This document shows, piece by piece, positions 4,819 through 50,200 of a DNA stretch of 64,000 nucleotides. Position 1 is the first letter of the stretch. Each line of letters begins with the position of its first letter. The notes under the pieces are model-generated. The model saw nothing but the letters and a program-made list of their open reading frames with translations, was not told the DNA's origin and ran no database searches. The translations under genes and the position numbers were made by a program. The DNA comes from Asterias amurensis. Taxonomy: Eukaryota; Echinodermata; Asteroidea; Forcipulatida; Asteriidae. The DNA is taken from assembly GCF_032118995.1 (NCBI RefSeq), contig NC_092665.1, forward strand, positions 16,884,012 through 16,948,011, read 5' to 3'.

Positions 4819-5198
4819 TATATGGGTCTATGTACTTTTTGTAGAACACAAAAACACAATGTCCACAGATTTACATAAAACTTACACAAAACTTACACAG
4901 TTTGACAATAATAATGGTAGAAAGCTTCCCTGAAAAATATTACGTGCTGAGGTGCTGTAGTTTTCGAAAAAATTAGTAAAACAATGTCATGAAAATAATA
5001 TTCGTCTCACTGAAATTATTTTAGCGTTCATGAACATATTTTCATGACATTGTTTAACTCATTTCTCAAAAACTACAGTACCCCAGCATCTAAGATTTTG
5101 AGGTCACTTTCTACTATCATTATCTTCAAACGGTGTAAGTGTAGTGTAAATCTGTGGCCATTGTGCTTTGTGTTATAAAAAGTACCCAAATCCTTTAA
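4819..5198. mobile_element. TTAA-class MITE family B, copy 2 (foldback)
   Basis: Inverted-repeat element matching the copy at 4030-4389, including acaatgtccacagatttaca on the left and tgtaaatctgtggccattgt on the right. The right end keeps TTAA (5195-5198); the left end is eroded. Confidence 0.75.
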
Positions 5199-5466
5199 TC
5201 AAGTGATAGATAGGTTATTAATAAAGTAATTTGACTTTTAATTAATCAAGTTATAAATGGGTTACTAATTAAATTTCCCATTTATATTATAGTTTGCAGC
5301 CAGTAATTAATGTTCATTAAGTTTATCCAGAAACTTTGGATGTGAAGGCCAGTGTTTTAAATAACTGCATATATTGCATATTCATGTATTTGTGTACTTG
5401 TTGAATTATGTGTAATGAAGTTTTCAATGTCAGATTCGCAGGAGTTAGTGTGAAGACAACCTTACT

Positions 5467-27637: not shown

Positions 27638-29283
27638 ATGGATGACGAAACATTTCGCCTAAGAGTCTCCGAGATGGCAGAGTTCATCTCTAACTACCTC
27701 AGTACAGTCAAGGAACGCCGGGTGTTTCCTGACGTGGAACCAGGCTATCTGAAGAGTCTACTCCCGGTGCAGGCACCGACAACATCAGAAACTTTGGAGA
27801 GCATTATGAAGGATGTAGAGAACAAGATACTTCCAGGGGTACGTCAAATACTTCAGTATTATATCATCGTTTTGTTGTCGATTGTGTGTAATTTCATTGT
27901 ACGTTTAATACTCTACATTTTCATTGGTTGTTATATATTATTATATGAAACTATGGAGAAGAAGAATTTGAAGGCTTTCTTTTTGAGATATCGCCAACAA
28001 TCTGGATCAAATAATATTATAATGTTCACGCAGGAAGAACAATCCAATTTGTTCTTATTTTTAACCGTGCTAAGTCGCAACACTATAGTCAAGCTTTACT
28101 ATATTTGTTCTACCACTGTAGATGACCCATTGGCAGCATCCATCCTTTCCCTTCCATGCCAATTTTTTACTCGCACCTTGTACAATAAAATGCACCTGCA
28201 ACACTTGCCACCGCACATAGGAGTAGAACAAGAACACTAGTAAAGCTTTACTATTTGTTCTACCACTGTATATGACCCATTGGCAGCATCCATCCTTCCC
28301 CTTCCATGCTTACTTTCAACACTAGTCAAGCTTTACTGTGTTTGTCCTACCTCTGTAGATGACCCATTGACAGCATCCATCCTTCCCCTTACATGCATAC
28401 TTTCAATACTAGTCAAGCTTTACTGTGTTTGTTCTACCACTGTAGATGACCCATTGGCAGCATCCATCCTTCCATGCTTACTTTCCAGCTGGTAACTCCT
28501 ACCCATCTATCTTAGCCAGTCTGCTCTCCGATGGATTAGGCTGCATCGGCTTCTCGTGGGTATAAGAACCCCATCCGTTTCTTTGGACATGCATCATAAG
28601 AACAGTTCATTTTGGAGGATATTTCTCGTGGAATTGTGGGAGCGACAAGATGGGACAAGGGTCTGGGGGGGGGGGGGGGCTTCTCACACTCCTCTCAATG
28701 ATAGCCTGTTAAATATCTTTGCTCATGATAAGTCCAAACAAAAAACACAACTCGATGACAAAAATGAAATTTCTATTGCATGCATGGGCACTGGTTGACC
28801 TTGTTGTGTAACTATTCGAATTGAATGTTGTTTGTTGCTTTGTTTGTTAATGAAGAAATGCTTAGTGGGAAAATGTAATTCGGGTTACAAGACAAAAGAA
28901 CGCACCTTGTAAACTCTAGAATTTGTGATTAATGCTACATTAGCATTGCTAATGTCAATAATTGTATTGTATTCAGGCGGCAAGTCCAGCTATGACTGAA
29001 TTAGAAACGGTGATGGTTGATTGGTTGGGTAGGATGATGGGCTTGCCCAATGAGCTGTTGCCATACACAAAGGGCTGCACGGGGGGCGGAGTTTTGCAGG
29101 TATTGCTTCATAAATATTATGATTTCATTTTATGTTTTATAAATACGGGCTGTAGATTCCTTAGGAGCAACATTAGAGAATAATTAAGTAAGAGCCCTTG
29201 TTTAAACCCGCTGACTTCAAAACAGAATTGCGTTGCGGGTCTTCTTTTCATTTGGTGACGATAGGCTACCCATTAAAGTTTTT

Positions 29284-29333
<50 letters not shown>

Positions 29334-32300
29334 TTTTTGCGGAATAAACCCAATCTGAATGTAGAAATCCTCTTTTAAAACTCACCAACATTGTATTTGA
29401 TTTACAGGGGTCTGCCAGCGAGTGTACTTTGGTGTGTATGCTTGCTGCGAGGACAAAGGCTTTGCAGAAACTAAGAAAAGTTTATCCGCATAAAGACGAT
29501 TATGATTTGCTGCCAAAATTGGTGGCATATTTCTCTGAAGAGGTAAGCTGGGTACTCTGGGTAACGAAAGCATTTTTTGTAAGTTTTCTAAAAGAAATCA
29601 AAATTAATGATGTGCAGTTTCACTTTATTTTAGGCGCACTCGTCTGTTGAAAAAGCTGCAAACATTGCTTTTGTGAAGAGACGAAAACTTCCAACAGACA
29701 AGCACTATGCATTCAGAGGGAAGACACTTCGAAAAGCAATGGAGGTAGGTAATAATATACCCCATGGGGAAGACATGGGAATAATTGTAATTAAAAAAAA
29801 AATTAAAAAAGGATCACGATATTTACCAGATAAACTTCTTCGCTCAAAAAATCTTTCCAAAAACTTGTAAAATCAAATGTTCCTCTTTTGTTTCTTTTTA
29901 GCAAGATGAAAAGAGCGGCCTTGTTCCTTTCTTCGTAAGTATAAACAATCGGATGCGAACAAGCTGAGAAAATGAGTCCTTTCCAATGACACCAAAATAT
30001 GTGATTGTGGCATATCACCCCAATCTATGCCACACCTTCTACAATGCCCAGTCAAACTATAAGATAGTGATAACATCCATGAGCAATACAAGAAACTATA
30101 AATGCATTGGATTTTCATTTTTTTTTTATTTGTAATCAACAGGTATGCGGAACGATTGGAACCACAAGCAGCTGTGCATGTGACAATCTCGATGAACTTG
30201 GAGAGACGTGTTCAGCGAATGGTAGGGATGTATGGCTTCACGTTGACGGTGCATACGGGGGAAACGCTCTTATCTGCCCGGAGTTCAGGTACTTGCTTCG
30301 TGGATTTCAGGTAAAAAACGAAACTCCTGAATGTTTTTTAATTGTCAAATATTCTTATTACATTGTGCTATTATCAGTTCTGTCTGGTTGTTGTTTTACT
30401 TTCTTTATGTTTCAGTATGTGACGTCATTCAACGTTAACCCTAACAAATGGCTGCAAGTGAACTTTGATTGCTCTGTGATGTGGTATGAAATTTTCATTT
30501 GTTTCATTTGCACCCAATAGCCAAAAAAACAACACAAACAATATTTTTAAATGATTGTGGCATTGGCAATTAAAATTGTTCTTTATTTGCAGGCATGTTC
30601 GGATTTAAATGTGATCGAGCTAGAAATCCTTTGGGACTTGATGGGCCAATTATGAATTAGTTTTATACATTTTTTACATCATCTGAAGGGTTCGAGATAA
30701 GAATGCACTTATAGACGCCCTCACCGTTAACCCGGCCTATCTTCAGCATGATAATGACGACCGGGTCATAGACTACCGAGTAAGTTTAATAATGACTGTT
30801 TGCAGAAAATAGAATGAACCAACATTAATATAGCGAAATCTGCAAAACCTGTTTGATTTCTTAGTGAATTTCCCTCCTTGATCACCTTTTATACAGAACT
30901 GGACCATACCCCTAAGTCGGCGATTTCGGGCCCTTAAGCTTTGGTTTGTTATCCGGATGTATGGCGTGGAAGGCTTGCAACAGTTCGTACGATTGGTAAG
31001 GCAGTGATAAAAGGAGTTCCCCCCTCCCCCCTCAGGCGATTTCGGGCCCTTAAGCTTTGGTTTGTTATCCGGATGTATGGCGTGGAAGGCTTGCAACAGT
31101 TCGTACGATTGGTAAGGCAGTGATAAAAAGAGTTCCCCCCTCCCCCGTCAGGCGATTTCGGGCCCTTAAGTTTTGGTTTGTTATCCGGATGTATGGCGTG
31201 GAAGGCTTGCAACAGTTCGTACGATTGGTAAGGCAGTGATAAAAAGAGTTCCCCCCTCCCCCGTCAGGCGATTTCGGGCGCTTAAGCTTTGGTTTGTTAT
31301 CCGGATGTATGGCGTGGAAGGCTTGCAACAGTTCGTACGATTGGTAAGGCAGTGATAAAAGGGGTTCCCCCTCCCCCCTCAGGCGATTTCGGGCCCTTAA
31401 GCTTTGGTTTGTTATCCGGATGTATGGCGTGGAAGGCTTGCAACAGTTCGTACGATCGGTAAGGCAGTGATAAAAGGAGTTCCCCCTCCCCCCTCAGGCG
31501 ATTTCGGGCCCTTAAGTTTTGGTTTGTTATCCGGAAGTATGGCGTGGAAGGCTTGCAACAGTTCGTACGATCGGTATATAAGGCGGTGATAAAAGGGGTT
31601 TCCCCCTCCCCCCTCAGGCGATTTCGGGCCCTTAAGCTTCGGTTTGTTATAAGGCTTGCAACAGTTCGTACGATCGGTAAGGCAGTGATAAAAGGGGGGT
31701 TCCCCTCCTCAGATGCGTGTTGGTATCTCCAAAAACAAAAGGGCCATTGTAAAATCTCCAGAAACTTCTTTCAATCGCTCGCAGAAAAATAATATTTTTC
31801 TGCTTCACATTATTCAAATATTTAATTGTTTAAATTCATCTTATCAACCACCGTAACCTTAGAAAATTGCGGTACGAGGACTCGGTGCTTTTTACCCTGC
31901 TAGCCTAGACTGTACCAGCAGCCAGTATATCGGTATCATACAAAGAGATCCTGGTCAAGTTGACATTGTGATTGTATTCATTTAGCATTATTTTTCCTTT
32001 GTCTTGCTGTTTTATGTACACGGAAATTCATTGTACTGTGGTGTTTTATGTCTGTTTGTCTTTAAGCATGTTAGGCTGGCACAACTATTTGAGACGCTGG
32101 TGCGACAGGACCCTCTGTTTGAAATCGTCGGTGATGTAGTCTTTGGATTGGTTTGCTTCAGGATTAAAGTATGTAGTACTGCAACCGGTTAATAATGTAG
32201 AAAATTTTTTTGTTAGATGGATCAAACTAATAAAGTAGTTATATGACAGCAGTGATATAAACACTTTGTTATACATTCTTTGTCAAATAATGTTTTGAAT

Positions 32301-32697
32301 ACTTTGCAGTTTTGTGGAATTGGAAAAGGGTTCTATATCCTTCAAATCATTAAATTGTATTAGTTTGTAAGCTATCAACTTTGTCCAACAAGAATCTGTC
32401 ACAATAAGTATTTACTTATACATTACTTTCTGTTCCTTGAAAATGATTGACCATTCCGTTGTATTAATACAGGGACAGGACAAACTAACAGAGGTTCTTC
32501 TAAAACGTATCAACACTTCAGGAGAAGCTCACATGATCTCAACTCGCTTGGATGATAAGTTTGTCATCCGGTTTGCCGTTTGTCATCCTCAAGCAACTGA
32601 AGATCACATCACACAGTCTTGGAACATTATTAGGCACCATGCTTATCACACATCGTTCCCAAAGGATGGCGCTGTTGAAAAGTTGTTACAGAATTAG
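27638..32697 (+). CDS. Group II PLP amino-acid decarboxylase, tyrosine/histidine-decarboxylase-like, complete, 12 exons, 489 aa
   Basis: Exons 27638-27838, 28446-28559, 28977-29099, 29408-29542, 29634-29744, 29902-29934, 30143-30310, 30416-30483, 30689-30779, 30897-30995, 32067-32168 and 32473-32697 (TAG) join in phase to 490 codons, the usual family length. It would decarboxylate an aromatic or imidazole amino acid in the cytosol as a PLP-dependent dimer. Visible sites: [16 protein letters not shown] (substrate loop), AHSSVE with the PLP-stacking His193, HVDGAY with Asp274 (binds the PLP ring nitrogen), NPNKW with the Schiff-base Lys306, and loop Tyr335. Ser355 in [15 protein letters not shown] sits where human HDC has Ser354 and DDC has Gly. 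FPAGNS, HVDGAY and [12 protein letters not shown] recall insect tyrosine decarboxylases, while the N-terminal [10 protein letters not shown] recalls HDC. So tyramine synthesis is my first guess, histamine second, dopamine/serotonin least likely. Exons 2 and 10 border tandem arrays made from their own edges. Confidence 0.93.
28105..28490 (+). repeat. Exon-edge minisatellite: acceptor side of decarboxylase exon 2, 4 copies
   Basis: The word ctgtagatgacccattggca (acceptor plus first codons of exon 2) occurs at about 28116, 28266, 28353 and 28440. Spacings are 150, 87 and 87 bp. Only the last copy (28446 onward) continues into the full exon. The three upstream copies carry six extra bases (ccttcc.cc) and end at a stop codon shortly after ctttcaa. 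Copies 1 and 3 keep an AG acceptor; in copy 2 it is altered to 'at'. Confidence 0.9.
28560..28976 (+). other. Decarboxylase intron 2
   Basis: Intron with a G-run at about 28665-28679. No other feature; the frame at 28556-28798 is read-through of the exon end and is not coding. Confidence 0.5.
29290..29331. repeat. (AAT)n microsatellite
   Basis: About 13 uninterrupted AAT triplets in decarboxylase intron 3. Confidence 0.95.
30912..31712 (+). repeat. Exon-edge minisatellite: donor side of decarboxylase exon 10, 7 copies
   Basis: The true exon (30897-30995) supplies the first unit. Six more units of about 116 bp follow, starting near 31034, 31147, 31263, 31378, 31494 and 31614. Each repeats the last 78 bases of the exon, the gtaagg donor, about 20 bases of intron and a C-rich tract ending in ctcag or gtcag. 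So each copy looks like a small exon flanked by both splice signals. The coding frame [20 protein letters not shown] is kept in most copies; the last lacks the middle. Splicing a copy in at its cag would start in another frame and meet TAA within six codons. Confidence 0.95.
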
Positions 32698-33506
32698 AAA
32701 CATTGAAAAGTACAGAAAGAAGAATTGGAACCATTTGTGTTGGGAAATGCACTGTGCAGAGCAAGATAGGCCTAAGGACTACCAACCCTTTTTCTTTGGC
32801 GCTACCATAGTAGCCTTTTTAGTCTAAACATACGGGCTGCCGTGGGTACCTTGTCGAAAGGCGAGGTGATACCCATCCAGTCTCCATTAGAATCATAAAG
32901 GAAGCTTGGAAAATTAATCTATTGGCAGGGTCATTGGCTTTTGGCAGGGTCATTGGCTTTTATTTACTAATAAAGTGGCTAGAAATTAAGTAAACATGTT
33001 TTTTTTTTTAGTGAGTAGGCTTGGTTTAGCGGCTGGTGTCAAAATAATATGGGGTGAAGGGGCTGCGCCGGGGGGGGGGGGGGGGGCGACAGAGGGGCGT
33101 TAGATCAGTATTATTATTGGTTGTACTAGTGTGGCTGAGGGTTGTGTTTTCAAAATAATGATGGGTGATCTACAGAGTGTTGGGGGCCAGACACCCCTAA
33201 CTTTGACCCGAAGTTGACACTATATCTTAATAAAATTGTGAGTATTCTTAATATAATATACGTAGGCCTATACATCAGGTTTTTATAAAAAATAACAGCT
33301 GAGCACAGATGCAATCTAAGTAAGCCTAGGCCTGGTCTGGTTCTTAATAAAGTGCGAAGAGTTGGATCAGATTGGATGAGGAGTAACGCGGCGCAATGAA
33401 CATTCTCCCTTTGACCTCGTCGAGGGCGCCCTTCTCATAAGATATGTCGATTCAAGATGGCTGCGCCCATGGTGTCGCATGTTCCATTTGTTTAGGATCG
33501 TTCACA
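32698..33506. other. Decarboxylase 3' flank
   Basis: 3'UTR and intergenic. A doubled word 'ggcagggtcattggctttt' lies at 32926-32962 and a G-run at about 33070-33086. No gene seen before the foldback element at 33507. Confidence 0.5.
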
Positions 33507-34165
33507 GGGTCCTACTAAAAGCCGACAACAAGCCGACAACGCCGACAACAAGTCCAGAGCGCCGCCAACACGCCGCCAACAAGTTTTAAATACCTCAAAA
33601 ATGGCAAATAAACCATATAAATTTTAGAATTATGTGTGTTTTGTAATATAAACATAAATTTAATGGAAAAACTTCACGAAAAGTGTGAATTTTTAACCAG
33701 AAAAAAAAACTTAACGTTCACGGAGAACGGTCGGACGCCATCTTGGCTTAAAATCGTGTTTGGACCAGTCCATTATGATGCGGGTGAGTCAGACTTAGCA
33801 ATAGAGGGCGGGCGTCATGCACTGTGCACACTGCAGTGAAGGTCTTCACATGAAGCCCGCCCTCTGTTGTTGACAAGTGCTAAATCTACCCGTATCATAA
33901 TGGTCTGGTCCAAACACGGTTTTTAAGCCAAGATGGCGTCCGACCGCTTTCCGTGCAAGGGAAGTTTTTTTCTGGTTAAAAATTCACACTTTTTGTGAAG
34001 TTTTTACATTAACTTTATGTTTATATTACAGAACACATATAGTTCTAAAATGTATATGGTTTATTTGCCATTTTTGAGGTATTTAAAACGTGTTGGCGGC
34101 GTGTTGGCGGCGCTCTGGACTTGTTGTCGGCGTTGTCGGCTTGTTGTCGGCTTTTAGTAGGACCG
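33507..34165. mobile_element. Foldback (Mutator-like) element, 659 bp, near-perfect inverted arms
   Basis: The left arm begins GGGTCCTACTAAAAGCCGAC, and the right arm ends with its mirror image CGGCTTTTAGTAGGACCG. The arms (about 320 bp each) are nearly identical and meet near 33830. Flanks TCGTTCACA (33498-33506) and TCGTTGACA (34166-34174) form a 9-bp target duplication with one mismatch, the length used by Mutator-type elements. The arm tips contain short tandem words (GCCGACAACAAG, CGCCGCCAACA). No coding capacity. High arm identity suggests a young or gene-converted copy. Confidence 0.85.
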
Positions 34166-35533
34166 TCGTTGACATCCCGATGTTTTCCACCGGCAGCTGA
34201 CTTTCAATTTGGTATTCTTGGAATAATAATGGAGTCTTAATAAAGTGTCCTATGCATTGAGTGCGCGGGAGACAGCAAAACAACCGTGAGTATTGAGTTG
34301 GAAATTTTTATTTTTATTTCTTGAAAAAATTGAATTGAATAACTTATTATTTATACTAAATAAATTGTAAATATAATTAATTTTGTTTTTATATTAATAT
34401 TATTAATATTGTTAAATAAAATAAATTTAATAAATTTTTATATTATATTATTATTAATTTAATAATATAATGAATAGGGTAGATGGCTTTAGCTTTCGAT
34501 CCAATCCGGACCTTCTTCAGACTGATGCATATTATTATTAATTTTATATATCTATTTGCGGAAAAGTTTCCGTATGGCGCAACCACTTTTTTATTCAATA
34601 GTATCAATTAATATAGTTACTAGTATTAGTATAGTAAGTAGACCTATCTTAATCTAATTTACCTCAACCAGAAAATGAGATATCCTTTTTTGTAAAAATA
34701 AGTGAAAAAGTGGTGGCGCCATACGGAAAGTTATCCGTTTTAATATTTTTTTAACAAATTAATAATTTGAATGATAGGGACGTGCGGACAATTATCCAAA
34801 ATAAGGTTTGGAATCGTAATTACCGCCCGACTCAATGGCTGATTTTGCTGAATTTTCCAAAAAGCACCGTCTGTGGGATGGGAAGCCCTTTTTGCTGAAT
34901 TTCTGAAAAGAAGCGCTGTCTGTTGCGTTGGATCATAGAACAAGGAGGAGGGATGGGTGGGAAGCCTGTTTACCCATCCCATGCAACGGTGCTTTTCGGC
35001 AATTCAGCAAAATTAGTCTGGTGGTTATTGTGATAAACCTTTTTGGATTCGGAAGATGTTTTTTGTGCATGTTTTTACACACAAACTTGACTCTGCAAAG
35101 TTTTGCTGGCTAAAAATTACCATTTGCATTTCAGGCATTTTGTAATAGCTGCCTAGCGTTATGGAGGCCCAAAATGTATTGCTATAATAATTATACCATT
35201 GAGCCTTCTCTACTCCTAGTTAGAACTATATGAGATTCAGCAGAACATTATTCCTAGTTCTAGGAGTAGGTGTAGCCATGGTAGGACGTCAACGGAGGAG
35301 TCCAACCTGGGCTAGGAGTTGGTGTAGAGTTGCAAGACCCCACAGACAGAATGTCAGACTGTTGTGTTAAGCAGTCTAGCTACACATCTTTTTAGGATAA
35401 GGATCTATCTAAAATTTAGTTATGAGTATTGTCTGATTACTTAATCTTATTTTTTACTGTCATTCATTTGCTTTTAATCTACACAGAAAGGCGTGCTGGC
35501 GGTACGTTGTGAATAAAAAAGAGACTAATTAAA
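34166..35533. other. Interval between the foldback element and TTI1
   Basis: An AT-only stretch (about 34300-34470), hAT-type MITE copy 3 (listed separately), and a small inverted repeat at 34838-35017 with arms of about 45 bp (tgctgaattttccaaaaagc against its mirror near 35000). From 35460 a pyrimidine-rich stretch ending in ctacacag (35488) may be the acceptor of the TTI1 5'UTR exon. Confidence 0.5.
34560..34736 (-). mobile_element. hAT-type MITE, copy 3 (177 bp, longer centre)
   Basis: Ends match the 132-bp family (GGAAAAGTTTCCGTATGGCG on the left, ATACGGAAAGTTATCC on the right) in reverse orientation. The centre is about 45 bp longer. Flanking 8-mers do not match, so the duplication has decayed or the copy was rearranged. 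Confidence 0.75.
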
Positions 35534-38500
35534 ATGACACAATCTGCATTTGAGAGGCTGAAGCCAATATGTGTGCATCTCTCCAAAGAACCAACAAATG
35601 AAGGAATTAATCAGCTCAAATCTCTCCTTGATGCAATGGGCGAGGGCGCCCTACAGCCTCTTCAACACTATGTTCTCTTTCCATTACGACTAGTTCTAAG
35701 AGACCCAAGAAAAGTGTAAGTAACTTTATTGACCCTATTTTGGGTCTAACCTTGATGAACCTGACAGAAATAATCAAAGGGCAAAATGTTTTTGGTTTCA
35801 CACATCACACTTGGGCCTGATGTTTCACTGGTTTTCTGACCCTTCATCGATAGATTAAATTGGACAGGAACTACAGTGTATTTCATTGATCATACACAAG
35901 CCTGTATGCTTCGTTTTTGAAAGGGCAAGGGCACCAAGTCATGTAAAGAGCACCCTATGAGGAAATGAACAATTTGTACTGGGGCATTTCAAGGGCACTA
36001 AGGCAATGACCTGGGGCATGGAGACAATCAACTCCATTGCATCCGTGCAGCCCTGCATTATAAATACTGACCATGTTTGTTCCTTTTTTGCAGGCCCACA
36101 GGTTGCTGTGAGAATGCTATTGGGTGTATCAGGCAAATATTCTTGGTAACTACAGTAAATGAATGGCAGGTCTTCTCAGATTTCTTTTCCACCCTGTGTA
36201 TTCTCATCAGTGAAAAGAGTAACTTTAGTAAAGGTAAGGCAGTAAATGTCAAACATATCTGGGGAACTTTCATTCATAAAAAAAAGAAAAGATTTTAGGG
36301 GGAATGTGGTGCCTACCAATTTGTATCACATTTTTTGCTCTCAATAGTTTACTTCCGTTTCTATTTCGTTTTGGGCTTATGAAGTGCTACTTTTACAAGT
36401 CCCACTAGGAACCAAGAAAATTAAAATAGTCAGTAAGTTTTATAGATAGTTCTTACATTGTCTTTTCAGCCTCCAAACACCCAGAAGAATTGAAGCTAGC
36501 TGTGATTCAATGCTTGGAGACTTTGTTAAAACGTGCTTCAAATGAGTGAGTTATTTTAAAATCCTTTGTCTCCCAATTAATAGACTTTGTTAAAACGTGC
36601 TTCAAATGAGTGAGTTTCTACACAATCCTTTGTCTCCCAATTAATAGAAATGTCATTATCTTTAACATCCTTAAAACCAAGGAGTTACTCACTCTAAGTT
36701 TCTTAAGCTTCACAAACATAAACGATAACTATCCCTAACATACAAGTCTTGTTGACAATATTCTCAATTAAACCTATTTCCATTGTTTTCTGTAAAACAA
36801 GGCAGAAATATGAGAAAAATTTAACCAAGCAACATAACAGTTGGTTTAAAAGAAAACAATAGCCCTAAAACTGAACACAAGAATCATACCTCAATAAACC
36901 TTATTTTTTTTTTCCTTTAGTGTTCTAAGGCAGCTGTACAGTCCTGAGTTTTTGCCAGCTGTTGGACACGCTGTGTCACTTCTCATAGCTCTAGCAGAAT
37001 CTGAGAGATTAAGAGAGTTGAGGGTCACATCCATGACCTGTTTGCAAACGCTGGCTCAGTGTCGAGGTAAACATGGTTTCATCTTTTAAAATTCAGAATT
37101 GCAAGCAGTCAAAGTTGTTAGTGTTTTAAAGTGAATAAGAGTTGAAGGTTGGCTTGGTGTAAGGGTTATAAGAGTGATGGGGGTTCAGAGAAGCACCGTT
37201 TGCCTGTGGCCTTTTTTTCAGTGAGGTCTCGGGAAATCTCTGATCTGAGTATACAGTGTTTTGAATGTATGTGATTGGGGTTCAGAGAAGCACCGTTTGC
37301 TTGTGGCCTTTTTTCAGTGAGGTTTTGGGAAATCTCTGATCTGAGTACACAGTGTTTTGAATGTATGTCATTTGATTTACTTATGTTTTGTTTGTGTGTA
37401 GAGGGTGAGCTGATGAGCCACGTTGAGGAAGCCAGAGATTGTTTTGGTTCGTTCCTACCGGGAATCACAATGTCTCTCTGTAGAATCATCCAGGGGGATC
37501 AGAAACAAGGACAGGTAGGAAAATAAACATCCAGCAGTTATTGACTTTTTCATCCGTATATTGCATTGATTGAGTTTTCTGTTTCATTGATTATGATTGA
37601 TTGACTTTCCGGTTTGATTATTGCTTTGATTGACTTTTCTGTTTGATTGATTATTGCATTGATTGACTTAATGCCTTTTTTTTGTTATATCCATTTTTCT
37701 TCAATGACAACTTTGACACAACATCGTTGGAACCAACAGAATGTCACCAACGTAAGTCCTGATTTGTATTTTGTTTCATTTGACTCGATTTGAAGATATT
37801 AAGTAATGCAGAACTAATTCTGAAGCAAAGGGAATTTCACGCTGACAGACATCTCTGAATTTGTTCCAAACTCTTTTTTTCCCTCTCTATTGGTTCTTTT
37901 TAGGATCTCTTGTATGCACTGCTTGTAATTTATGATTATAAGAATGGATAACTTTTCATTGTTAATGTATATTCAATTTGTGGTTATACTATGACTATTG
38001 TTTAAAAGGAATTTTGATTTTATTTTGACAATAGATTGCAATCAAAACGTGGTCCTCCATTGTTGCCATGGTAATGAGTGATTTTCACTCACCAATCCAA
38101 CCTGAGTGTCACTTGGATAAAGGCGGGGCAAAGCACGCAGGAAGAGACTTATTGATTAAGAGAACACAAGATTGGGTAGAGTCAACTGCAAAGAAACTGG
38201 ACATTCTGATTGGTCAGATAGTAACGCTATCAACAAATCCAAACTGGAAAATCCGAACTGCATTGGTGACATTTTCAGAAGAGTTGCTCTTCAGTTGTAA
38301 AAGGTACTGACAAATACTATTAAGAAATACTGTTAATAAAATCTTAATTGAGTCTTTCAACTACTTTTTGGTATTGACATGTATGTATGTATGTATGTAC
38401 CTTGTATTTATTCAGAGAGTATAGATTTAAGTACAAGAGGTAGTGGTGTGCAAACACACCTGTAGCAGCAGTTTTGAAGACAACAAAATTGTGTACTTTA

Positions 38501-41500
38501 TGTATCTTGATGAAAACAGATTGACTAGTGGAGGCAGCTTTGCCAATAAAATCCATGCTTTACACTGTCTTTTGTGTTGGCGCCTAGATCAGTTTTCTGG
38601 AGAAGTGCGCATTGTAAGTCCATATTATTATTATTATTGTTATTATCTTGATTCAATTCATAGAGATTAAGCGTGGCAAGAGTGGTAGTTTAACCAATGC
38701 TACACAGTATTTTTAAGATTGCTTTCCTATGATCTTGTTAAATTACTATTTCAAACTCAATCTGCTTGATTCCATGGTCTTTAGATCCTTATCGCCAAGC
38801 ATCCCTAAACTCCTTGAGGTCTTGGTATCACTAGTTGGAGATGAATACAATGAGGTTGCCTCTCACAGTAAGAGGATTCTTTCAAGATTCAGTGAGGCTC
38901 ATATGAGAGGTACAGATGGAGAAGAAGGTGAAGATGCGAGGCCTTTGGTGGAACTCCTTGAAGACAATTTACATTCCTTGATGACATCGTTGCCTCGGAT
39001 AATGAGAACATCAGGTAAGTTACAGATTGGTTGACCTTTAGTTAAATCATGGAGTAAACTTTATGTAAACTAATTTGACTTGAATCTGGTGTTGTGTTTT
39101 TCTTGAAATCAGTGTCTGCCAAGATGACTTGGTATGTGACTCTAAAGACAAGTAGCTTCATCAAGACGAGAAGAAGAAAAAGATTTGAAGCAAAAATGAT
39201 GATTTACGTTTAACTTGTTTTTATTTGTATGTTGTTTTGCAAAGACTCAAACTTGTGTTTTAGGTCTTATCATTGAAGTGTTTGCTGTCCTTATTATATT
39301 TCACAGAGGTGCATTAAAAGAGGAGTAGTGATGAGGTGAATATCCATTGGTGAAAACTAAATAACTTTTAAAGTTGTTTTCTCTAAAGATTTTTGTTTCC
39401 ATTTCCTTCAGATGATACCTGCAAACTTTCAACATTGAATCTTGTCATTGGATACTTGAAGTTACTAGGTAAGTGTTTATTATTAATTAGTATATTTTTG
39501 TTCAGTCTGCATAATTTGTTGTCAGTCCTCAGTGGTCTTGAAGATATTCTGCTTCCACTATCACTTCTTAACTTCCTCCCTAGGTCCAAGGATCTCTTCT
39601 CTTCTCAACTCCATCTCACATCTCAGACGTCTCTCTCTGGCCCTTATCCAGATCTTAGAGTTTGACTTACGGGACATCAAGATACTTGAAGAGACAACCT
39701 CTGGCCCAGGTAAATTCCTTTTCTGCAATTCTCAGGGATTAAGACGGTAAGTTGTTTGTCGGTTGAGTACAGGAATGGGCGGGAAGGGGCTGAGGAATGC
39801 TCGGGTGAAGGTAACAGCAGAGAGTGGGAGAGGGTCATTTACCCAGAGCGTTGGGTGACCACTGACCCACCATAACACCAGTAAGCATAGCGTGGTGGTG
39901 CTGTTGGGGAAGATGTCTTTGCCTTTAAGACATTGTTTCTCTTTGGAACAGAGGTACAAAAGCTCTTTACTCAAAAGATGTTAGACCAAATCCTTCTCAA
40001 CACTGAGTCTTAAACAAAAATTTATTCAGGTTTAAAATTGTCTGTTTCAGACGGTGCTGCATTTAGCATGGAGGTTTATCAACATTGCCCAACTAGACGT
40101 AAATATTTCAAGCATTTCACAGACGATAAAATCTACAAGGCAGTTGTGCAGGTTTGCCATTTGCTTGGATTGTATGGTAAGTTTTTATCAAATCATCATC
40201 AGATGTTGAAGTATTTTGCATGATTGTACAATAATGGGTAATTATTACAACTATTATTATTTGATTGTTCTGGTAATGAAACAAGGAATGGTCAAAAGTG
40301 TCTTTCTCTGTAACTCGTATGTCTGAAGATACCTGTGAAGAGAAAATGATGAAAGATAGTAAAGGCGGAAAGCTCAAGGTGGGTGGGGTCAGAGAGTGGG
40401 GCTAGAAACTCAATTCATATGCAAGGCTCTGGTCTACTAGGGGTTCAAACTCAACAAGGGTCTTATGAAAGGCAGGAAATGACATTACTGAGCCAACCTT
40501 CTCCCTTCATGTATATAGGAAACATCACACTTCTTGTGGACCATTTTCTTGATCTCTTCCACGAGACGTCTTCGCATCAGAAACAAGCAGTCCTCATCTT
40601 AAATGAGATCATGCTGGGATCAATAGCATCACCGATGGACGACAGCAACAAGGCATCATGGGAAGGATCGGCTTGTCCAGCCTTGAGGGAAAATTCGGAG
40701 ATAGAGAGCGCAGTTCGGTAAGAGATTTCGCTTTTGAATTTATTTTGAAAACCAAACACATTAAAAAGTAGTTAAAGATTTTTTGTTGCAATAATGCAGC
40801 AAGTTGACAAAATGCACCAAACTGACAAAATGCACAATGGGGTATAATGCTTTAGCTTGCACTTAATTGATCTGATCTGATTTGATTTGATTTGATTTAT
40901 TTGAAACAGCAAAGGTAAATCCCATGCATTCCCTTTGTACATCAACTGGAAACCTAAAGATGAAACGGTGGTGTTGCAGAAACGGAGAAACTTCGTTGCA
41001 AGGTCCTATCTCCTTCTACAAGCTTGATTTTTTACTGATGTTCCTCTTCCCTTTCTAGGAATTTACTTCAAGAATACACTTCTCCTTCACATTGGTATCT
41101 GACTACAACTCCCAGCCAATCAGAGTCTGCGATGACACATAAAGGCACAGCTAGTTGGCTGGTTGTTTCGCAGCGAGAAGATAACAGCATTTCATTGGCT
41201 GCATTGAATAGCAATGTTCTTCTCATCAGTTTATTTTTGGAAGGGATTGGTGCGTTTTCTCAGGTATTACAAATAAATCAGTCACTTTTTATTTCTTGTT
41301 GAGTCTTCAATAAAAGTTGGCTTTGAAATGATTTGTTAGAATATTCAATGTTTTTTTCTAACATCATGAATTAATTAACTAACCCTCTCCCACAAAAGGA
41401 GGAACTTCCCTGAACCGTTTCTGACCCAATGGCCATCAGAAGAGTTTTGTTATTGCGCTACATTGTATAATTGTTGATTTGTTGAACTTAAAGGTTTTGA

Positions 41501-44500
41501 GCCCAGCATTCACCATGTTCTTAATGGATTGCCTCTACTCTGTACTGGAGAAAGTTGATGATAGTAAATCCATTATCAGGTAAGATTATTACTCATATCA
41601 AGTCTTGAATGAGTCTCTGATTCAGAGGCTTTATCAAGAAAGTTGACATCCTACTGATCCAGCAAAACATCAAATAAAGACAGTTGGAAGAAGAGACGTT
41701 GAGTGATTTGGATGGTGCAGCTAGCTCAGTCAATGGACATCGCCCAATAATAGATCCATTAGCTTTATGCAAGCATTGGGAAAACAATGTGCTTTCTACT
41801 GTGGAGCAGGCTGGCTCAAAGGACATCACCCAATAATAGATCCATCAGCTTTATGCAAGCATTGGGAAAACAATGTGCTTTCTACTGTGGAGCTGGCTCC
41901 TCATCAAACGACATCACCCAATAATAGTTCCATCAGCTTTATGCAAGCATTGGGAAAACAATGTGCTTTCTATTATGTGATTACTGGAGTGATACTGAAG
42001 AAAATAAGTACAGAAATAATATTCATAAAAATATTTTCAGAAATGTTGTTTGTGACACACTAAAACCCATAACCCTTATTTTTAGCATAAATTTTTCACT
42101 TTGTTTAAGTCTATTTCATCTGTCATCTTTTCATTTTTGTTGTTGTCAGCCAAACAGCGTATTCCACCTTGATGCAAATGTACATGTCATGTGGTTATGA
42201 GAGCATTCCAGACCTGCTAAGCTCCAATTCAGACTATCTCGTTGAGTCAATATCATCTGGTCTTAGACATCTTGATATGTACCCTAAGACGCCACTTGTT
42301 CTTAAAGTCACACTCCAACATAGGTAAGAAGTCAATGTATTAGACTAACTTCCACCCTTATGTAGCGAAACAGCCCAACTCGAAAAATTACCTTTTAAGA
42401 AATGCACGTACAAAGATACGCTGTTTTGCCATAAAAGTGTTTTGAAAGTGTAAAAAGAGGCTGCTAGAAAGGCTGCATGCCTATGATATTTTGAAATTGA
42501 AAAAGTGCTGAGTCCCATTATGGCTAGCTAATTAGCTCTATTGTCCCTTCTCTATTCTGGACCATGTTGATGTTACTCAAGATCTGTAGTGATTGAATCT
42601 TAACGACTGCATATTACTCTTATTTACAGTAATGCTGATATGTTACCTCTTCTACAAGACACCATTGATGAGGTAAGATTCTCAAGAAACAATTTAAGGT
42701 CATGTAACTTTATCTAATATTGGCAACAGTATCAATCTCTGAAAGAGAAAATGTTGTACAAAATTTGCTTCGTCAAATAATTGGTTTTGAATATCAGTGG
42801 CCAATGCAACTCTGTCATATTTCTTTCTACATGATCTATTCCATTCTTATATGCGTTATTTATATTCTTTAATAGATTCTAGTGACGTTGGACGAGTATC
42901 ACCAAGATGTTGCTCCGATGATGATTGATGTCTTGAAGACTCTGGTTGTTGCAATCATCAGATGGTTCCCTGAGGAAAAGGTACCCCAGAGTAATTCAAA
43001 CTAATACTCATGCCTGGTTCATACTACCTGCGAATGCAATATAAACTTTAACATCACAAAGTTGCAACTAACAATTCAGAAAAGTTGAACCATCCTTTCA
43101 TATATTTTATTCTGTATATTTTGACTTTTTTGTTATTAGAAGAAAAGATCACCATTAGAAGGGCAGCAAACTGCTGAGCAATCAGTAGATGAGTCCCAAT
43201 CCAACAATCAAGCTGTAACTCATCAAACAATCAAAGAATTCTTCCTTGAACACCTTCGGCTCAAGCGCCTTGCGCATGGTGATGTACGAGAAGAGGATAT
43301 AGAGGGCAGTGTTGATGATAGCTCTGGTGATGAGGTTTATGATTGTGAGGATGAGGTTGATAAGGAGAAGGAATTACCTCTACATGTTAAGACTGTGAAA
43401 GAGGTAAATCAAAAATAAAGACTTTTAGTGAGCTTGCAAATTCTTTGATGTGTTGCCCATGATAACGTTAAATGTATTATTCTTTGTATTTATAAAACTG
43501 ATTTTTGAAAAACTTTTTTTTTCTCAATCTTTTACAGAATCAATTCTACTGATGACTGTTTTATTTTACTGACTGTTTTGTTTGTTTATTTTTTTTAAGG
43601 TTCTTTCCAGATGTCTCCATTTCCTGTCATCCAGCGACCCACGGCTACGTCTTAAAGTTCTTGACATTATTCAAAATGGCATCATAGCTCTACAAAACTA
43701 TAAAGGTAGACAAGACAGTAGTAATACAGTGATTTCACTTTGTAATATAATTCAATGTAAGACACTTGTCTGTAATATTGAGTAACTTTGACAGTGTGAA
43801 ACCATTAAAGATCATTGATTGTTTTTTGTGACCCTTCCTTTAAAAAACAAACTGTTGAGGTGTGTACTTTTTCAGATCTATGCGGAACACTTCATCAAAA
43901 CAAAGTATCAAGGGGAATCATTCTTGCAAAAATGTGACAAGCTTCCAAGCTTCTAAAATTTACCCAATGTAAATTTTCGTCTAAGATGCAAATTTAAAAA
44001 ACAATTTTGAGGCTTCATGACCTGTTTCAGAAGTCAAACAATGTCTGATGTCAATCTGTTTTTGTTTGGATTACTTTTTTATTCATCTTCTTGTATATTT
44101 CTTTGTAATTTTGTTTTGTTTGTCTTGTCTAACTTTGTTCCATTCAGATGAACTGTTGCCACTGATTCACAGACTCTGGCCTGCCTTTGTACAACGTTTC
44201 AAGGATACCGAGCAACTGGTATCCTGCAAAGCCTGTGAGGCACTTGTTACCATGGGGGATACCAGTGGTGATTTTATACAGAAGAGGATCATAAAGGATG
44301 TGTGGTCTAAACTGGTGTCCTTTCTTACAACACAATCCAATATCAGGTAAACTTTTAATAGCACTCTGCTCTGCATTAATGCTAAAAAATAGATGCCAAG
44401 TAGGCAGTTGTCAGAAAAAGGGTCACATTTCACTAATGAGTACCCACAACCAAGGATTTTGTGTGTACTGACTAAATTACCTGTGCTGTTAGGTGCATCA

Positions 44501-45484
44501 ATGATGCAGTGATTGCGTAAGTGGTTGAATGATTGTCTGACAGTCGAGTGTTTTGAGCAACAGTGACGCCATTAGGGCGAAGGGCTTTAGCAATCATATT
44601 TGTACTAAATGTTAATTTTTCTAATATTATTATAATTAGTTAATTAACTGTCCTCATGAGAAACTCCATACCAGGTGACTGTTTTCTCAAGAACCCCCTA
44701 TTCTCCAACGTGTAGCTGGTATTTCTTGTTCTATTTCCTAAGCACTACTTTGCATCATTTGGTACATGTTGTGCTATTGCTAACTTTCTTGATTTTGTGT
44801 TCTTTCAGTGAGAAGTGTGGTCCAGCTTACAGACATACCCCTTCCTGTAAACTACAACTAGCCATCTTTGCTCTCCTTGGTCCTCTTTGTATTACAACAG
44901 GAATAGGAGGCAGTGAGTTAGCTACGATGGCTTCTGCCTGCTTGCCTTACCTGAATGCTAGACAACCTGAGGTCTTACAGCATGCTGCATTCAATGTCTT
45001 CAAGACGTTTGGTAGTCTGGAACCTGATGCAATGTGGCTTGCATTAAATGATATCTACTGCCCAACCACTCTCAAGGCACCTCATGAATGCTTTCAGTCA
45101 CACAAGGTAAAGATTGAACGATCATCATTGATGCAAGAGAGTAACACCATCAATAATAGTTGGCAATTTCCATCTAGTTCAATCCCATGTAATTAAACTC
45201 AACATTATTAGGATTTGAGAGAGGTTAGGGCCGAAACGTCGGGCCATTAATTTGTTTTATTTACAAAATACGTCCTTTTTTTGGTTTGTAAGCAGTTTAC
45301 AACAGCTTATTTTACTGTCTCAATAAAAACATTTCAAAACAAAATGCCACCTTGCAAACCCTCGGTTGAGTTTTTGATCATTATTCCTAATTTATATTTC
45401 CAGTTTGTTGGTGAGACTCATCCCCAGAGAAACCAGTACTTGAAGAATGTCCAGAAACTTCTTGATCAACTTAATACTTGGTGA
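35534..45484 (+). CDS. TTI1: TTI1 (TELO2-interacting protein 1), complete, 22 exons, 1078 aa
   Basis: TTI1 forms the TTT complex with TELO2 and TTI2, which acts with HSP90/R2TP to fold and stabilise PIKKs (mTOR, ATM, ATR, DNA-PKcs, SMG1). Exons: 35534-35715, 36094-36233, 36470-36545, 36921-37066, 37402-37514, 37740-37751, 38035-38303, 38785-39014, 39412-39468, 39584-39709, 40051-40176, 40519-40717, 41059-41263, 41494-41579, 42150-42323, 42630-42672, 42876-42980, 43140-43403, 43600-43705, 44148-44346, 44809-45106 and 45404-45484. All phases agree and total 3237 nt; human TTI1 is 1089 aa. Recognisable stretches: [73 protein letters not shown] and [13 protein letters not shown]. The protein is alpha-helical (HEAT-type) throughout, with an acidic insert ([19 protein letters not shown]) encoded near 43315-43380 where human TTI1 also has one. 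Exon 6 is a 12-nt microexon. Exon 3 has a duplicated donor edge. Confidence 0.96.
35926..36060. repeat. Dispersed repeat family D ('gcaccctatgaggaaat')
   Basis: About 130 bp in TTI1 intron 1 (aagggcaagggcaccaagt, gcaccctatgaggaaatg, ggggcatttcaagggcac) matches 56100-56262 in the opposite orientation. Two copies are too few to define ends. Confidence 0.65.
36518..36647 (+). repeat. Exon-edge duplication: donor side of TTI1 exon 3, 2 copies
   Basis: A 64-bp unit begins in the last 26 bases of exon 3 (agactttgttaaaacgtgct), includes its gtgagt donor and 38 bases of intron ending aattaatag. It is repeated once immediately downstream. The second copy therefore has an AG in front and a donor behind, so it could be read as a 26-nt exon that would break the frame. 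Confidence 0.92.
37178..37370 (+). repeat. Intronic tandem duplication (about 97-bp unit) in TTI1 intron 4
   Basis: gggttcagagaagcaccgtt, then ttttttcagtgaggt, gggaaatctctgatctgagt and acagtgttttgaatgtatgt occur twice in a row with a few differences. No exon sequence is included. Confidence 0.9.
37740..37751 (+). CDS. TTI1: TTI1 microexon 6 (12 nt, residues NVTN)
   Basis: Flanked by ccaacag and a perfect gtaagt donor. Including it restores exact length agreement with human TTI1 between QGQ (end of exon 5) and the Met in VAMVMSD (exon 7): 18 residues in both. Phase 0 on both sides, so skipping removes four residues without a frameshift. Confidence 0.8.
41745..41975 (+). repeat. Intronic tandem triplication (86-88-bp unit) in TTI1 intron 14
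   Basis: agctttatgcaagcattggg and aaaacaatgtgctttctact recur at 41761, 41847 and 41935. Units are nearly identical; no exon sequence is included. Confidence 0.9.
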
Positions 45485-47283
45485 GATTGATTCCCTGAAT
45501 ACTTGTGTGATTATAACACCAATGTATGAAAATGGGCCACACTATTGTTGCTTTCAACCTCCATGTGGACTTGTATGGAGGGAATAACAACTTGTCATAA
45601 CTAGGAAATTAAGATGAGGTCATATGCCAGGCACTCAATTCATGACGTTAGACTCTTTTAAGATACCCATTTCAGTTTCCTAAAGCCCAGTTTATAGAAA
45701 CTGCAACTTCCCGTAAAGGCAGTCGACACTATTGGTAATTACTCAAAATAATTATTATCATAAAATGTTACTTGGTAACGAGTAATGGGGAGCTGTTGAT
45801 AGTATAAAACATTCTGAGAAATGGCTCCCTCTGAAGTAACGTAGTTTTTGAGAAAGACGTTTACATATAATACCCACAATAGGTCATGTGCACACAGAGC
45901 TCCAGTTAAGGCTCCAAGAGTTATTTGAAAGTGCGCTTTTGGTATGGGATTTGAACAGGCAGAGAAAGCATAAGCAGGAATAGAAGCCTTGTTTTGATAA
46001 TAGCCTATGATAAATTTAGATATGGGAGTTTTTATCCCAGAAGTTAAAGTATTGTGGTAACGACAAATTCTTAACCATTTGTAGGCTGTTAGTGATAGTC
46101 TATTCTGAGGACTGTGCAATGTTGTTACATCATACATAGAGTGCTTGGCTTACCCCAAGCCTTGGAAATAATTCTTTGGTTTATACCAATACCTTGGCGC
46201 TATATAAATTCCCTCTGATTGATTGATTGAATACCTGAATGTAGACTTTGACCCCATCAGTCGGAGCTAGTAACCATAGTAATACCTTAAACCTTAAGAT
46301 AGGAAAGTTGACAACCAAATAATTTGGAGACAAATAAACCATTTCTTGTAAAAATTATCTCCTGGCAGTTGTATTTGTCACAATTATTGTAAGTGAATAA
46401 CATAAAAATACACACACCTCAATTTTTTAATAACCAATTAATAATGCTTTACGAATGTTTATACAAGCTACTCTTCATACAATTGGGCAGTACATGCATA
46501 AACAAAATATTCCCTTGAACTGGAGGAAAAAAAACTTGGTCACCCATTTTAAAATAACATAACAAGCTAACTTGAAAATATATAATATAGAATTGCCTTT
46601 GACAAGGCAGTACACACTGGTTAATCTTAAACTGTTAAAACATTGTAAAAGATTGGTGTGTACAAAGTACTGGGAGTAATGGATCTATAACAGCAACATA
46701 CTCGGAAGATGTTTTGGGCAGCAGAGTATTTCTTCCAGAATTAGAAGTTAAGCCATTTGCAAGAATTGAGCTGTATTGGCAAGTATTAAAAATCTTCACA
46801 TATCAAATCTTAACTGCTGTCAAGAGATGCTGAACTTTTTGTAATTAAGTTTCACCTGAATCTTGACCTGATAAAAATTGGCACAGTTTTAAAATATATT
46901 AAACACATTTTAAAATGTTGCAATAAAAATACTGAAACCACCTAAAACCTGAATTCTACCTTTAAAAAGAAAGAAAACTATTTTTGCTAATAGAATAACA
47001 AAATATTATTCAAGACTGATTTTGCTGTATTGATAATTGTAAAATTGTTAAATTTGACGATCCCTAGAAACAAAACAAGTAAAAAAGTTGCTTGCACAGG
47101 GGACATTTGTTTTGGCAGTGACTTCAAACTACCAATGTATCTGTATAAACAGATATTACTAGTGTTTCCACTTTGAATATAAAGTTTGTTGCTACACTAT
47201 CATCTTTTGTCAAAGAAAACAAAATCTAAAAACCACAACAACAAAACAAACTCAGCTGTGTCAACTTCAAGTCGTCTTTCCCT
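45485..47283. other. Tail-to-tail interval between TTI1 and SLC66A1
   Basis: Holds the 3'UTRs of both genes; I cannot place the cleavage sites. A truncated family-A MITE lies at 45712-45860 (ggcagtcgacactattggta onward). A SINE-like tail 'cttggcgctatataaat' followed by (TTGA)n is at 46190-46230. From 46380 to 47280 the sequence is AT-rich without other features, consistent with the SLC66A1 3'UTR. Confidence 0.5.
45712..45860. repeat. TTAA-class MITE family A, truncated copy
   Basis: Starts with the family end (aaaggcagtcgacactattg), continues with ttggtaacgagtaatggg, gagctgttgatagtataaaa and gctccctctgaagtaacgta, then stops. Shows what the copy at 648 looked like before it was interrupted. 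Confidence 0.75.
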
Positions 47284-50200
47284 TCAGTTTCTGTAGAACC
47301 CTTCATCATCTGATCGAACATTTGGAGTAAGAAGTCCTCTTGCTTCGTCTTCACTCATTACGTCAGTCATTCTATACAGACGGAACTGTAAAAGCATCTT
47401 GTTTAGTTGTTATTAAGGAAATATGTATCCGATTGTTTCCATGGAACTAATACCAAGACACTCTTTGAGTTCCACTCATTACTAGCATCTACTAGTAAGT
47501 TCTGTTTAGTAAACATTACCCAAGACAAAGTCATAAGGTAGTTAGGGTTAGGAGAGAATACATCGGTTCACATTTCTCTTAAACTACAGTAGATGGTAAG
47601 ATGGTGGAGGAAAATGGTAGAAAGTGCTTGAGTGCTGGCAGTTTGGAGGGAAAACCTTGCCCAATGTCTCACAGTACTAGTCTTAGGAACAGTAACAGTA
47701 AAGGGATAAGATAATATGAACTACAAGGGCCAATCAGAAGGGACAGTACTTTGCATAACGTGGCAAACAGGATTGCATTTGCTCCCAAAATAAAGTTGAT
47801 TCTGAGTCGGTGTTAAGATGTAAGTTGAAGTGTACTAAACAACATTTACATACATCTACCCAGATTTGTATAACTGGTTGATATGAATTACTCGGTCTTA
47901 AACATTCATACAAACCTTGGTTTGCAAATGCACAAAGTTTGACCAAATTTATCACCAATCTGTCACTCAACATGTCAAGAACCCTGATCATAATAAGTTT
48001 GTCAGCCTGAGATACCCAACATAACTTAAAAAAAAAAGGATACAATGCAGTCAAAGCAGAGTGTTCCAAGGCTACCCACAAGCCATGGTAAATGTCGTAC
48101 GATGAAGACGGGAGTTGTATTTTCCATTATGATTGAGAGACCATAGAATACATTCCCTAAGACAGTCAGAACGAACATCATGACGGCTACACCTTCAGTA
48201 GACTTACGTTTGAACTGCAAAAACACAAAACACAAATCTTTTATTTATAATGAAAGCAAGTTAAGAAACAGAACGATATAGTGATACAGAACAACTATCT
48301 CAAGGCCTCTTTAAGTACCCTTGTGGTCCAACATTTAATGAATCATACTTTTTAAAGTTACATATTCACCCTCAATCCAAGAAAATCATAATAATAACTT
48401 TTTGATGATATTCTACACCAATTCATGGTAAACACAAATTATGGTATAAATTCAAATTTTTATCTAATTAATTACTCAATGGCATTGAACTTTACTTTAA
48501 CACCAATCATTTAAAATTCCCCCGATCGGTTTATTATTGAACATTGTTAAACATTGTCAATGGCTAATAATTGTGAACTTACATTCTTATAAAGTTGAGG
48601 TATTCTGGACGCTAAATAGAAAACAGCGGAAATACATCCACTGGAGTAGCCAATTATTTCCATGTCATCCTGAAAGAAATCAAACAATAAATGTTTAAGA
48701 TCATGCTGGAAAAGTGCATAATTTAGCGATACATGTGGGACTGCATAAAAACAACTCTCCTGAGGCAATTTGTGCAGACAACAATAAGAAAATAAAGAAG
48801 AAGATTCCATGTGAAGCATAGTCAGAAGATGGAGTAGTCCTTAGACCAAAATGCTGCCCGTCAAGAGTTCCTCAAGTCAACAAAGCCTTTGCATCCACAG
48901 AATTGGATAGAAGAGGGCTAACTTAGGTTGCTAATGAAATGGTTTCTCTCAAATTCCAAAATGGTTTCCCCCAAACCTTAATACTCACATAAATAAAAAT
49001 TTACCAGTTCCAAAGAACGGTACTTGACATATAGTAGTCTCTACTCCAAAATGGTTTCCCCCAAACCATAATACATAAAATAAACATTTACCAGTTCCAA
49101 AGAACGGTACTTGACATATAGTAGTCTCTACCCCAAAATGGTTTCCCCCAAACCTTAATACTCACATAAAATAAACATTCACCAGTTCCAAAGAACGGTA
49201 CTTGACATATAGTAGTCTCTACTCCAAAATGGTTTCCCCCAAACCTTAATACTCACATAAAATAAACATTCACCAGTTCCAAAGAACGGTACTTGACATA
49301 TAGTAGTCTCTACCCCAAAATGGTTTCCCCCAAACCTTAATACTCACATAAAATAAACGTTCACCAGTTCCAAAGAACGGTACTTGACATATAGTAGTCT
49401 CTACCCCAAAATGGTTTCCCCCAAACCTTAATACTCACATAAAATAAACATTCACCAGTTCCAAAGAACGGTACTTGACATATAGTAGTCTCTACTCCAA
49501 AATGGTTTCCCCCAAACCTTAATACTCACATAAAATAAACATTTACCAGTTCCAAAGAACGGTACTTGACATATAGTAGTCTCTACACCAAGGAGTGATC
49601 TTCCTGACCTCCAGCTCCCATCATGCATTGTTGGTTGTTGTTGTTGCCATGGTGATAAGGATAACCAGCTGGTTCCACCCATTATAAGAAGACTTCCGAT
49701 GCCGAATATAACTTGACTATTTTGTGGCTTAGTTTCATTACATGTATCATAGCTTCTCTGAAGTCCTGAATTCATAAATACATTGTTATAAATGATGTTA
49801 ATTTTCTTTTGTAGATAATTATGAATATTATTGAAATAAAACAATAAGTATTAAAGTGCAATAGACTCACAACAAAATTCCACCTTTTGAACAAGTTTGA
49901 ATACATCCATTGTGGGCCAGAAACCATTGTTTAACAACTTCCAATCTATTCTATGGCAACAATTGATTGAATAATGAAATAATAAACTAATATGATATGC
50001 AGTTGAAATCAAGGTCAATAACCAATAAACTGATGATAACGTGTTGTTTAGTATTGACCTTTGTTCCCACAATATCTGATAAAACCACTGAATATAAGAA
50101 CGAGCCATTTCCACTTTCTGAACCTAAGCTTTGACAAGGAAGATTTCACAAAGAATTAAATTCCCATAAAACAAACAAACCAATAAATTGAATTTAATAA

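Follow-up and report, generated by a model that had tools for sequence, protein, structure and literature searches.

Tandem arrays across exon-intron boundaries in three neighbouring genes of the sea star Asterias amurensis are of the amphioxus 'mirage' kind

The window, a stretch of 64,000 nucleotides of the Asterias amurensis genome (contig NC_092665.1, positions 16,884,012 to 16,948,011 of the forward strand), contains three consecutive genes in which four tandem arrays have a repeat unit that spans an exon-intron boundary. Arrays of this form have been called 'mirages' in amphioxus and the sea star arrays are mirages in an echinoderm, a known kind of structure and not a new system. We consider it likely that they are neutral local duplications which splicing tolerates. 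The original prediction, made from the letters of the window, had listed four arrays with units of 87, 116, 64 and 91 bp in 4, 7, 2 and 7 copies, and all four were found in the sequence with Tandem Repeats Finder (TRF), the first of them when a separated first copy is included. The genes and the arrays are as follows.

27638..32697, + strand: AADC/histidine decarboxylase-like gene, 12 coding exons (spliced model)
35534..45484, + strand: TTI1-like gene, 21 coding exons, Pfam TPR_TTI1_N in two of them (spliced model including the stop codon)
47284..52624, - strand: PQ-loop gene, 7 coding exons, Pfam PQ-loop in two of them (spliced model)
28079..28473, + strand: array 1, 87-bp unit, 4 copies, end of intron 1 and start of AADC exon 2 (TRF, sequence, spliced model)
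30919..31710 (30919-31650 by TRF), + strand: array 2, 116-bp unit, 7 copies, the last one shortened (TRF, unit search, spliced model)
36518..36648, + strand: array 3, 64-bp unit, 2 copies, the first being the end of TTI1 exon 3 with the donor at 36545/36546 (TRF, model)
48956..49591, - strand: array 4, 91-bp unit, 7 copies, the first in transcript order being the end of PQ-loop exon 4 (TRF, model)

Arrays 2, 3 and 4 carry donors and in each the exon is the copy that the transcript reaches first; array 1 carries an acceptor. The tandem part of array 1 is 28233-28473 by TRF and the start of its separated first copy was read by eye. The copies of the exon start with its acceptor lie at 28122, 28272, 28359 and 28446, of which the one at 28272 has lost its AG, and AADC exon 2 is continuous only with the last copy, which makes the acceptor of the exon from 28446 the real one in the model. 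Thus, the claim that every array starts in a coding exon and takes its splice site along is correct in that each array holds a splice edge of the model, but array 1 starts outside the exon and it is the last copy that enters it. In array 2, copy 1 is the final 77 nt of AADC exon 10 with the donor at 30995/30996, the GT is retained in all seven copies, and from copy 2 onward each copy is preceded by a CAG that arises where the intron end meets the exon start. The full-length copies of this array form exon-like pieces of 76 nt between AG and GT that are about 40 nt apart. The unit of array 4 holds several candidate GTs and its donor was therefore placed within the unit and not to the exact base. 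The copies within the arrays are not identical to one another.

The spliced models of all three genes (AADC-like, TTI1 and PQ-loop) stay open through the arrays and therefore the extra copies are read as intron. The spliced AADC-like protein, in a query with one wrong residue, gave 585 bits to AADC 3rbf over residues 4-470. That this protein matches its family without the extra copies argues against the idea that the copies are translated protein repeats, that is, coding minisatellites. One such repeat by its look does exist in the window at 5478-6213, where an 18-bp unit in about 41 copies lies in the open frame 5452-6264 and gives PAEPKV-type repeats, and an array elsewhere in the genome (locus L032, 39-bp unit) may include one translated copy. 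However, the units of the exon-edge arrays contain intron sequence, and only the 87-bp unit has a length that is a multiple of 3 whereas those of 116, 64 and 91 bp do not, which shows no frame constraint on the units and leaves translated repeats with hardly any probability at all. That the arrays are mobile elements of the introner type, or artefacts of assembly, might be suggested by the repeat content of the genome, which is given as 48.69% (PMC10625585). When the 491.5 Mb genome (23 contigs, the last being the 16,427-bp mitochondrion) was searched with the units of arrays 2 and 4, very common words being skipped, each unit had 7 matches, all at its own locus and not at many places as a mobile element would have, and thus these two arrays are of local origin and not mobile. 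The assembly was made from PacBio HiFi reads (PMC10625585) and the copies differ from one another, both of which argue against an artefact. We regard mobile elements and artefacts, taken together, as highly improbable.

The original prediction knew of no described system of this kind, which has to be revised in view of the amphioxus data. Minisatellite-like duplications of intron-exon boundaries are described in amphioxus globin genes, for which the term 'mirages' was taken from the work on Adh3 by Canestro 2002 (PMC3087553), splicing was undisturbed according to RT-PCR (reverse transcription PCR) and to the Adh3 data, the arrays were unstable in length and somatically unstable, and a model for the gain of introns was put forward (PMC3087553). 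PGBD5 was added as a mirage gene and troponin C was cited (PMC3902484). The units there are 10-72 bp in Adh3, 150-160 and 157 bp in the globins BflGb6/BflGb9, and 60 and 108 bp in PGBD5 (PMC3087553, PMC3902484). The sea star arrays share with these the tandem unit across the exon-intron boundary, and also the AG/GT signals in the copies, many but not all of which are intact (the AG in three of the four copies of array 1). They differ in that they occur in a sea star and not in a cephalochordate, in that up to 16 motif copies are found at one locus (L030), and in that the copies of PGBD5 are less alike than theirs. Instability and undisturbed splicing have been reported for amphioxus, whereas the sea star arrays are known from the sequence of a single assembly, in which normal splicing would be expected from the open models. 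Related to these are the gain of an intron in a potato RdRp gene by tandem duplication across an intron-exon boundary (PMC4974935) and the novel introns of Drosophila gained by tandem duplication (PMC2891723). Here too a tandem duplication includes a splice site or a proto-splice site, but in these cases a new intron is formed whereas the sea star arrays sit at introns of the models and show no new one. Human intronic and exonic minisatellites with a variable number of tandem repeats are also near-identical tandem arrays in genes, but they are not defined by an exon edge in the unit. In the literature on the subject, as judged from titles and the openings of abstracts and with subscription papers mostly outside, no echinoderm case of a mirage was found.

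A likely course of events is that a stretch of 60-120 bp which happened to include an exon edge would have been duplicated locally in tandem, and that slippage or unequal exchange would then have enlarged the array. Outside the array, the remaining part of the exon would adjoin one copy only, the first in a donor array or the last in an acceptor array, and splicing from that copy would give the normal mRNA while the remaining copies would be left in the intron. Because splicing would proceed from the single copy that runs on into the rest of the exon, the gene would survive, and the arrays would be tolerated rather than selected. Their wide distribution would follow from the large number of minisatellites within and near sea star genes.

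Minisatellites confined to introns are indeed present in the same genes. The two at 37178 and 41745 that had been named before were found by TRF, and two more had not been counted.

37174..37372, + strand: intron-only array in TTI1, 96 bp x 2.1 (TRF, no splice edge of the model inside)
37559..37669, + strand: intron-only array in TTI1, 33 bp x 3.5 (TRF, model)
41730..41972, + strand: intron-only array in TTI1, 86 bp x 2.8 (TRF, model)
52031..52127, - strand: intron-only array in the PQ-loop gene, 45 bp x 2.2 (TRF, model)

The proportion of gene-borne arrays at an exon edge is therefore four of eight and not four of six as had been counted, with 37559-37669 and 52031-52127 added. Four of six had been thought to exceed expectation, and a chance test on the three gene spans, which hold 74 splice edges in 20,352 bp (3.64 per kb), did not bear that out for either count. 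Arrays with units of at least 30 bp were considered, and when a unit of the observed length is dropped at random in the collapsed genes it covers an edge with a probability of 0.13-0.48. Under this null, 2.1-2.4 edge arrays are expected for the six arrays (P(>=4) 0.11-0.17) and 2.4-2.8 for all eight (P 0.19-0.28), compared to the four seen, and when whole arrays are placed instead, the expected numbers rise to 4.2-4.3 of six and 4.9-5.1 of eight. Thus, the four edge arrays are locally unremarkable and within chance. What is high in the three genes is the density of arrays as such, 8 in 20.4 kb, whereas stretches taken at random had 17 in 190 kb (P 0.0006 in a post hoc comparison). The random stretches numbered 19, a further one (L012, C12:21604793-21614792) having been left out. 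The latter consists from 1 to 10000 of a 323-bp satellite in about 31 copies and lies about 300 kb from the contig end. In the 19 stretches a codon-score scan placed none of the 17 arrays over a listed coding segment, a result of little weight as the scan caught only 17 of 40 known exons. A home-made gene finder recovered the majority of the AADC and TTI1 exons in the models, but it over-predicted, degraded on self-training and was dropped.

Exon-edge arrays recur across the sea star genome. Loci with at least 3 copies of the donor word AGGTAAGT were examined, 20 of 22 in all (C5:6704837 and C22:7964856 were left out, and the long arrays on contigs C2 and C16 were taken at one end only), and whether a real exon precedes the array was judged by eye and not blind from the frame upstream of the first listed copy. 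In this way 15 of the 20 loci were judged to follow a coding exon, L034 and L043 look non-coding, and L040, L045 and L049 are unsure. Nine of the 15 real-exon loci had a Pfam or PDB match.

L031: Rod_C (Pfam, just above the cut-off)
L032: VWA (Pfam)
L035: 6PF2K (Pfam)
L037: bromodomain (Pfam)
L044: cullin (Pfam, E 6e-5, below the cut-off)
L046: LDLRA (Pfam)
L047: Drf_FH3 (Pfam)
L033: GALNT2 (PDB)
L039: phosphorylase kinase (PDB)

The family searches covered the loci other than L034, L036, L043 and L049; the sequence of L036 reads like an IP3 receptor. Pfam gave no match for L030, L033, L038, L039, L040, L041, L042, L045 and L048, and the PDB search with the peptides of L041 and L038 gave none. 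On the exon side the copies match over 10-82 nt in 11 of the 15 real-exon loci (in L032 the exon's own copy is unsure) and over 33 nt in L036, in L037 the match begins at the donor itself, and in L038 and L044 it was measured between later copies only. The period is always a multiple of 3 in two of the 15 loci (L032, L048), partly so in three (L030, L031, L044) and not in the other ten; in L047 one spacing equals three units. That array joins always lie at AG was considered and given up as a rule, since arrays 2 and 3, L036 and L047 conform to it but other arrays do not. The locus with most copies in this set, L030 (C1:1653077-1654486), has 16 motif copies with a 93-94 bp unit at the donor of an exon that has no Pfam match, and a long array at C1:67882-72029 has about 60 copies of AGGTGAGT at 69-bp spacing.

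A Markov estimate of the chance count of AGGTAAGT (14,284 or 18,235, compared to 13,407 seen) was of no help for the share of real donors, and therefore a sample of 20 single sites was used instead, namely 20 of the non-array sites at the start of C1 among the 100 of 13,407 that were listed. Ten of these, judged likewise by eye and not blind, follow a coding exon and 3 are unsure; of four single-site peptides two matched in Pfam (spectrin, below the cut-off, and PARP). The difference in real donors between array loci and single sites, 15 of 20 compared to 10 of 20, gives a Fisher p of 0.19, and a p of 0.73 when all unsure single sites and no unsure array loci are counted as real. As a rough indication of scale, about 15 loci per about 6,700 real AGGTAAGT donors is 0.2%, from which about 150,000 introns would give some hundreds of donor mirages with at least 3 exact copies, before two-copy and acceptor cases are added.

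Two sets of data weigh against the neutral account of these arrays, the first being the genome-wide counts of donor words, and the second the divergence of the copies. For the counts, pairs of donor words at set gaps were compared as a proxy with pairs of reversed words. The word AGGTAAGT occurs 13,407 times and its reversed control TGAATGGA 21,153 times, with 95 and 124 pairs, respectively, at gaps 50-80 and 96 and 112 pairs at gaps 81-111, and AGGTGAGT occurs 10,455 times and its control 15,632 times, with 77 and 96 pairs at gaps 81-111. The raw pair ratios per single word are thus 1.21, 1.35 and 1.20. Array loci, counted by eye and not blind where there were at least two rows of matches, were 22 per 13,407 for AGGTAAGT and an estimated 22 (related arrays kept separate) or 13 (collapsed) per 21,153 for TGAATGGA, the control loci having been counted among the matches listed (100 of 124 and 100 of 112) and their union corrected for the length of genome that was not listed, by which 20 became 22 and 12 became 13. 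For AGGTGAGT there were 12 array loci per 10,455 compared to 11 per 15,632 for its control, one of these 11 being the L031 array on the opposite strand. The pooled locus ratio is 1.59 (confidence interval (CI) 0.95-2.65) with related arrays separate and 2.18 (CI 1.26-3.85) with them collapsed. The highest single ratio is that of AGGTAAGT at gaps 81-111, 17 compared to 8 loci or 3.35 (p 0.0036, with 100 of the 112 control matches listed), and the lowest come from gaps 50-80, where the locus ratio is 0.73-1.35, so that single comparisons span 0.73-3.35. The pooled ratios and the 17 compared to 8 loci hint at a possible preference of arrays for donors or for gene bodies.

If co-transcriptional R-loops, breaks near splice sites or the like made tandem duplication more frequent at exon-intron borders than in the adjoining intron, donor words would be found in arrays more often than reversed words, as the pooled ratios of 1.59 or 2.18 have it, and real donors would be more frequent at array loci than at single sites, which is the direction of the counts of 15 and 10 in 20. 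Against this stand the local test, which was not significant, the raw pair ratios of at most 1.35, the p of 0.19 between array loci and single sites and the low locus ratio at gaps 50-80. Moreover, real donors are all in genes, and denser arrays in gene bodies would give part of the signal. The genome-wide excess at exon edges, about 1.2- to 2.2-fold by the mode of counting, is thus unproven and confounded with gene density. The border enrichment that had been proposed is not shown in the three genes, and across the genome it is weak and depends on how loci are counted. A preference of this kind as the explanation of the arrays is rather unlikely, and a mild one is conceivable.

For divergence, aligned copies of 13 loci were used, 11 of the 15 real-exon loci together with arrays 2 and 4 of the window (for array 2 the first five of the seven copies); L032, L037, L038 and L044 have no clear exon part and were left out. 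Substitutions amounted to 1.8% in the exon parts and 3.3% in the intron parts (Wilcoxon p 0.23); of the 13 loci, 6 had fewer substitutions in the exon part, 4 had more there, and 3 had the same level in both. No exon part had gaps (0 of 13) whereas intron parts had them in 5 of 13 loci. The pattern is not significant, yet it is not flat as strict neutrality would have it, and the extra copies bear at most a faint sign of constraint. Homogenisation with the single copy that is used as exon could also leave such a sign. An earlier measure (0.969 on the exon side and 0.970 on the intron side, 20 loci) was replaced as it stops where identity falls and is biased high.

The same data bear on the proposal that selection keeps spare splice sites or that alternative splicing uses them. 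Inner copies mostly retain their GT or AG, there are the exon-like pieces of array 2 with AG and GT at their ends, and the exon parts have somewhat lower divergence and no gaps in any of the 13 loci, as this proposal would have it. However, the difference in substitutions does not reach significance, one acceptor of array 1 is lost, most units are not multiples of 3, for which reason splicing at inner sites would in many cases put the reading out of frame, and the 'introns' between the pieces of array 2 would have only about 40 nt. The genome loci, for their part, were picked for intact donor words and cannot show that these words are kept. Selection for spare sites, as suggested originally, thus finds little support and we consider it very unlikely.

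As to the setting, the end of chromosome 18 is described as the most gene-rich megabase of A. amurensis, a species with 16,531 genes of 10.07 exons each (PMC10625585). A distance of 160-230 kb separates the window from the end of C18, in agreement with this gene-rich end if contig numbers are chromosome numbers. The genes on the mitochondrial contig read open with the echinoderm code, and ND1 and ND2 are oriented opposite to COI, an arrangement of asteroids. The PQ-loop gene is presumably SLC66A1-like. A fragment at 30000-30052 in AADC intron 6 has 37 other matches in the genome at 83-97% and is evidently a dispersed repeat, and Rfam gave no match at gathering scores anywhere in the window. 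Other tandem repeats in the window are a 6-kb array at 9670-15741 (87-bp unit, about 70 copies, 93% identity, with a strong strand skew towards G and A at the expense of C and T, respectively), two arrays with a common 17-bp unit in opposite orientation about 700 bp apart (17448-17513 and 18188-18301), and adjoining arrays with units of 115 and 177 bp and sequence in common (21307-21907).

The finding extends mirages, which under that name were found in the searched literature only for amphioxus, to an echinoderm, and suggests that in the sea star they may touch hundreds of genes. In a bolder form, which we consider rather unlikely, tandem duplication would be drawn to borders 2- to 3-fold over random sites, and hundreds of genes would have growing mirages that lengthen introns, supply spare sites and exon-like pieces and act as a standing source of new introns and exons, as proposed for amphioxus. 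Gene annotation near the edges of mirages is error-prone. Mirages provide material from which introns can grow or be gained and new exons can form, and, as they change fast, a natural experiment on the choice that the spliceosome makes between sites which are nearly the same.
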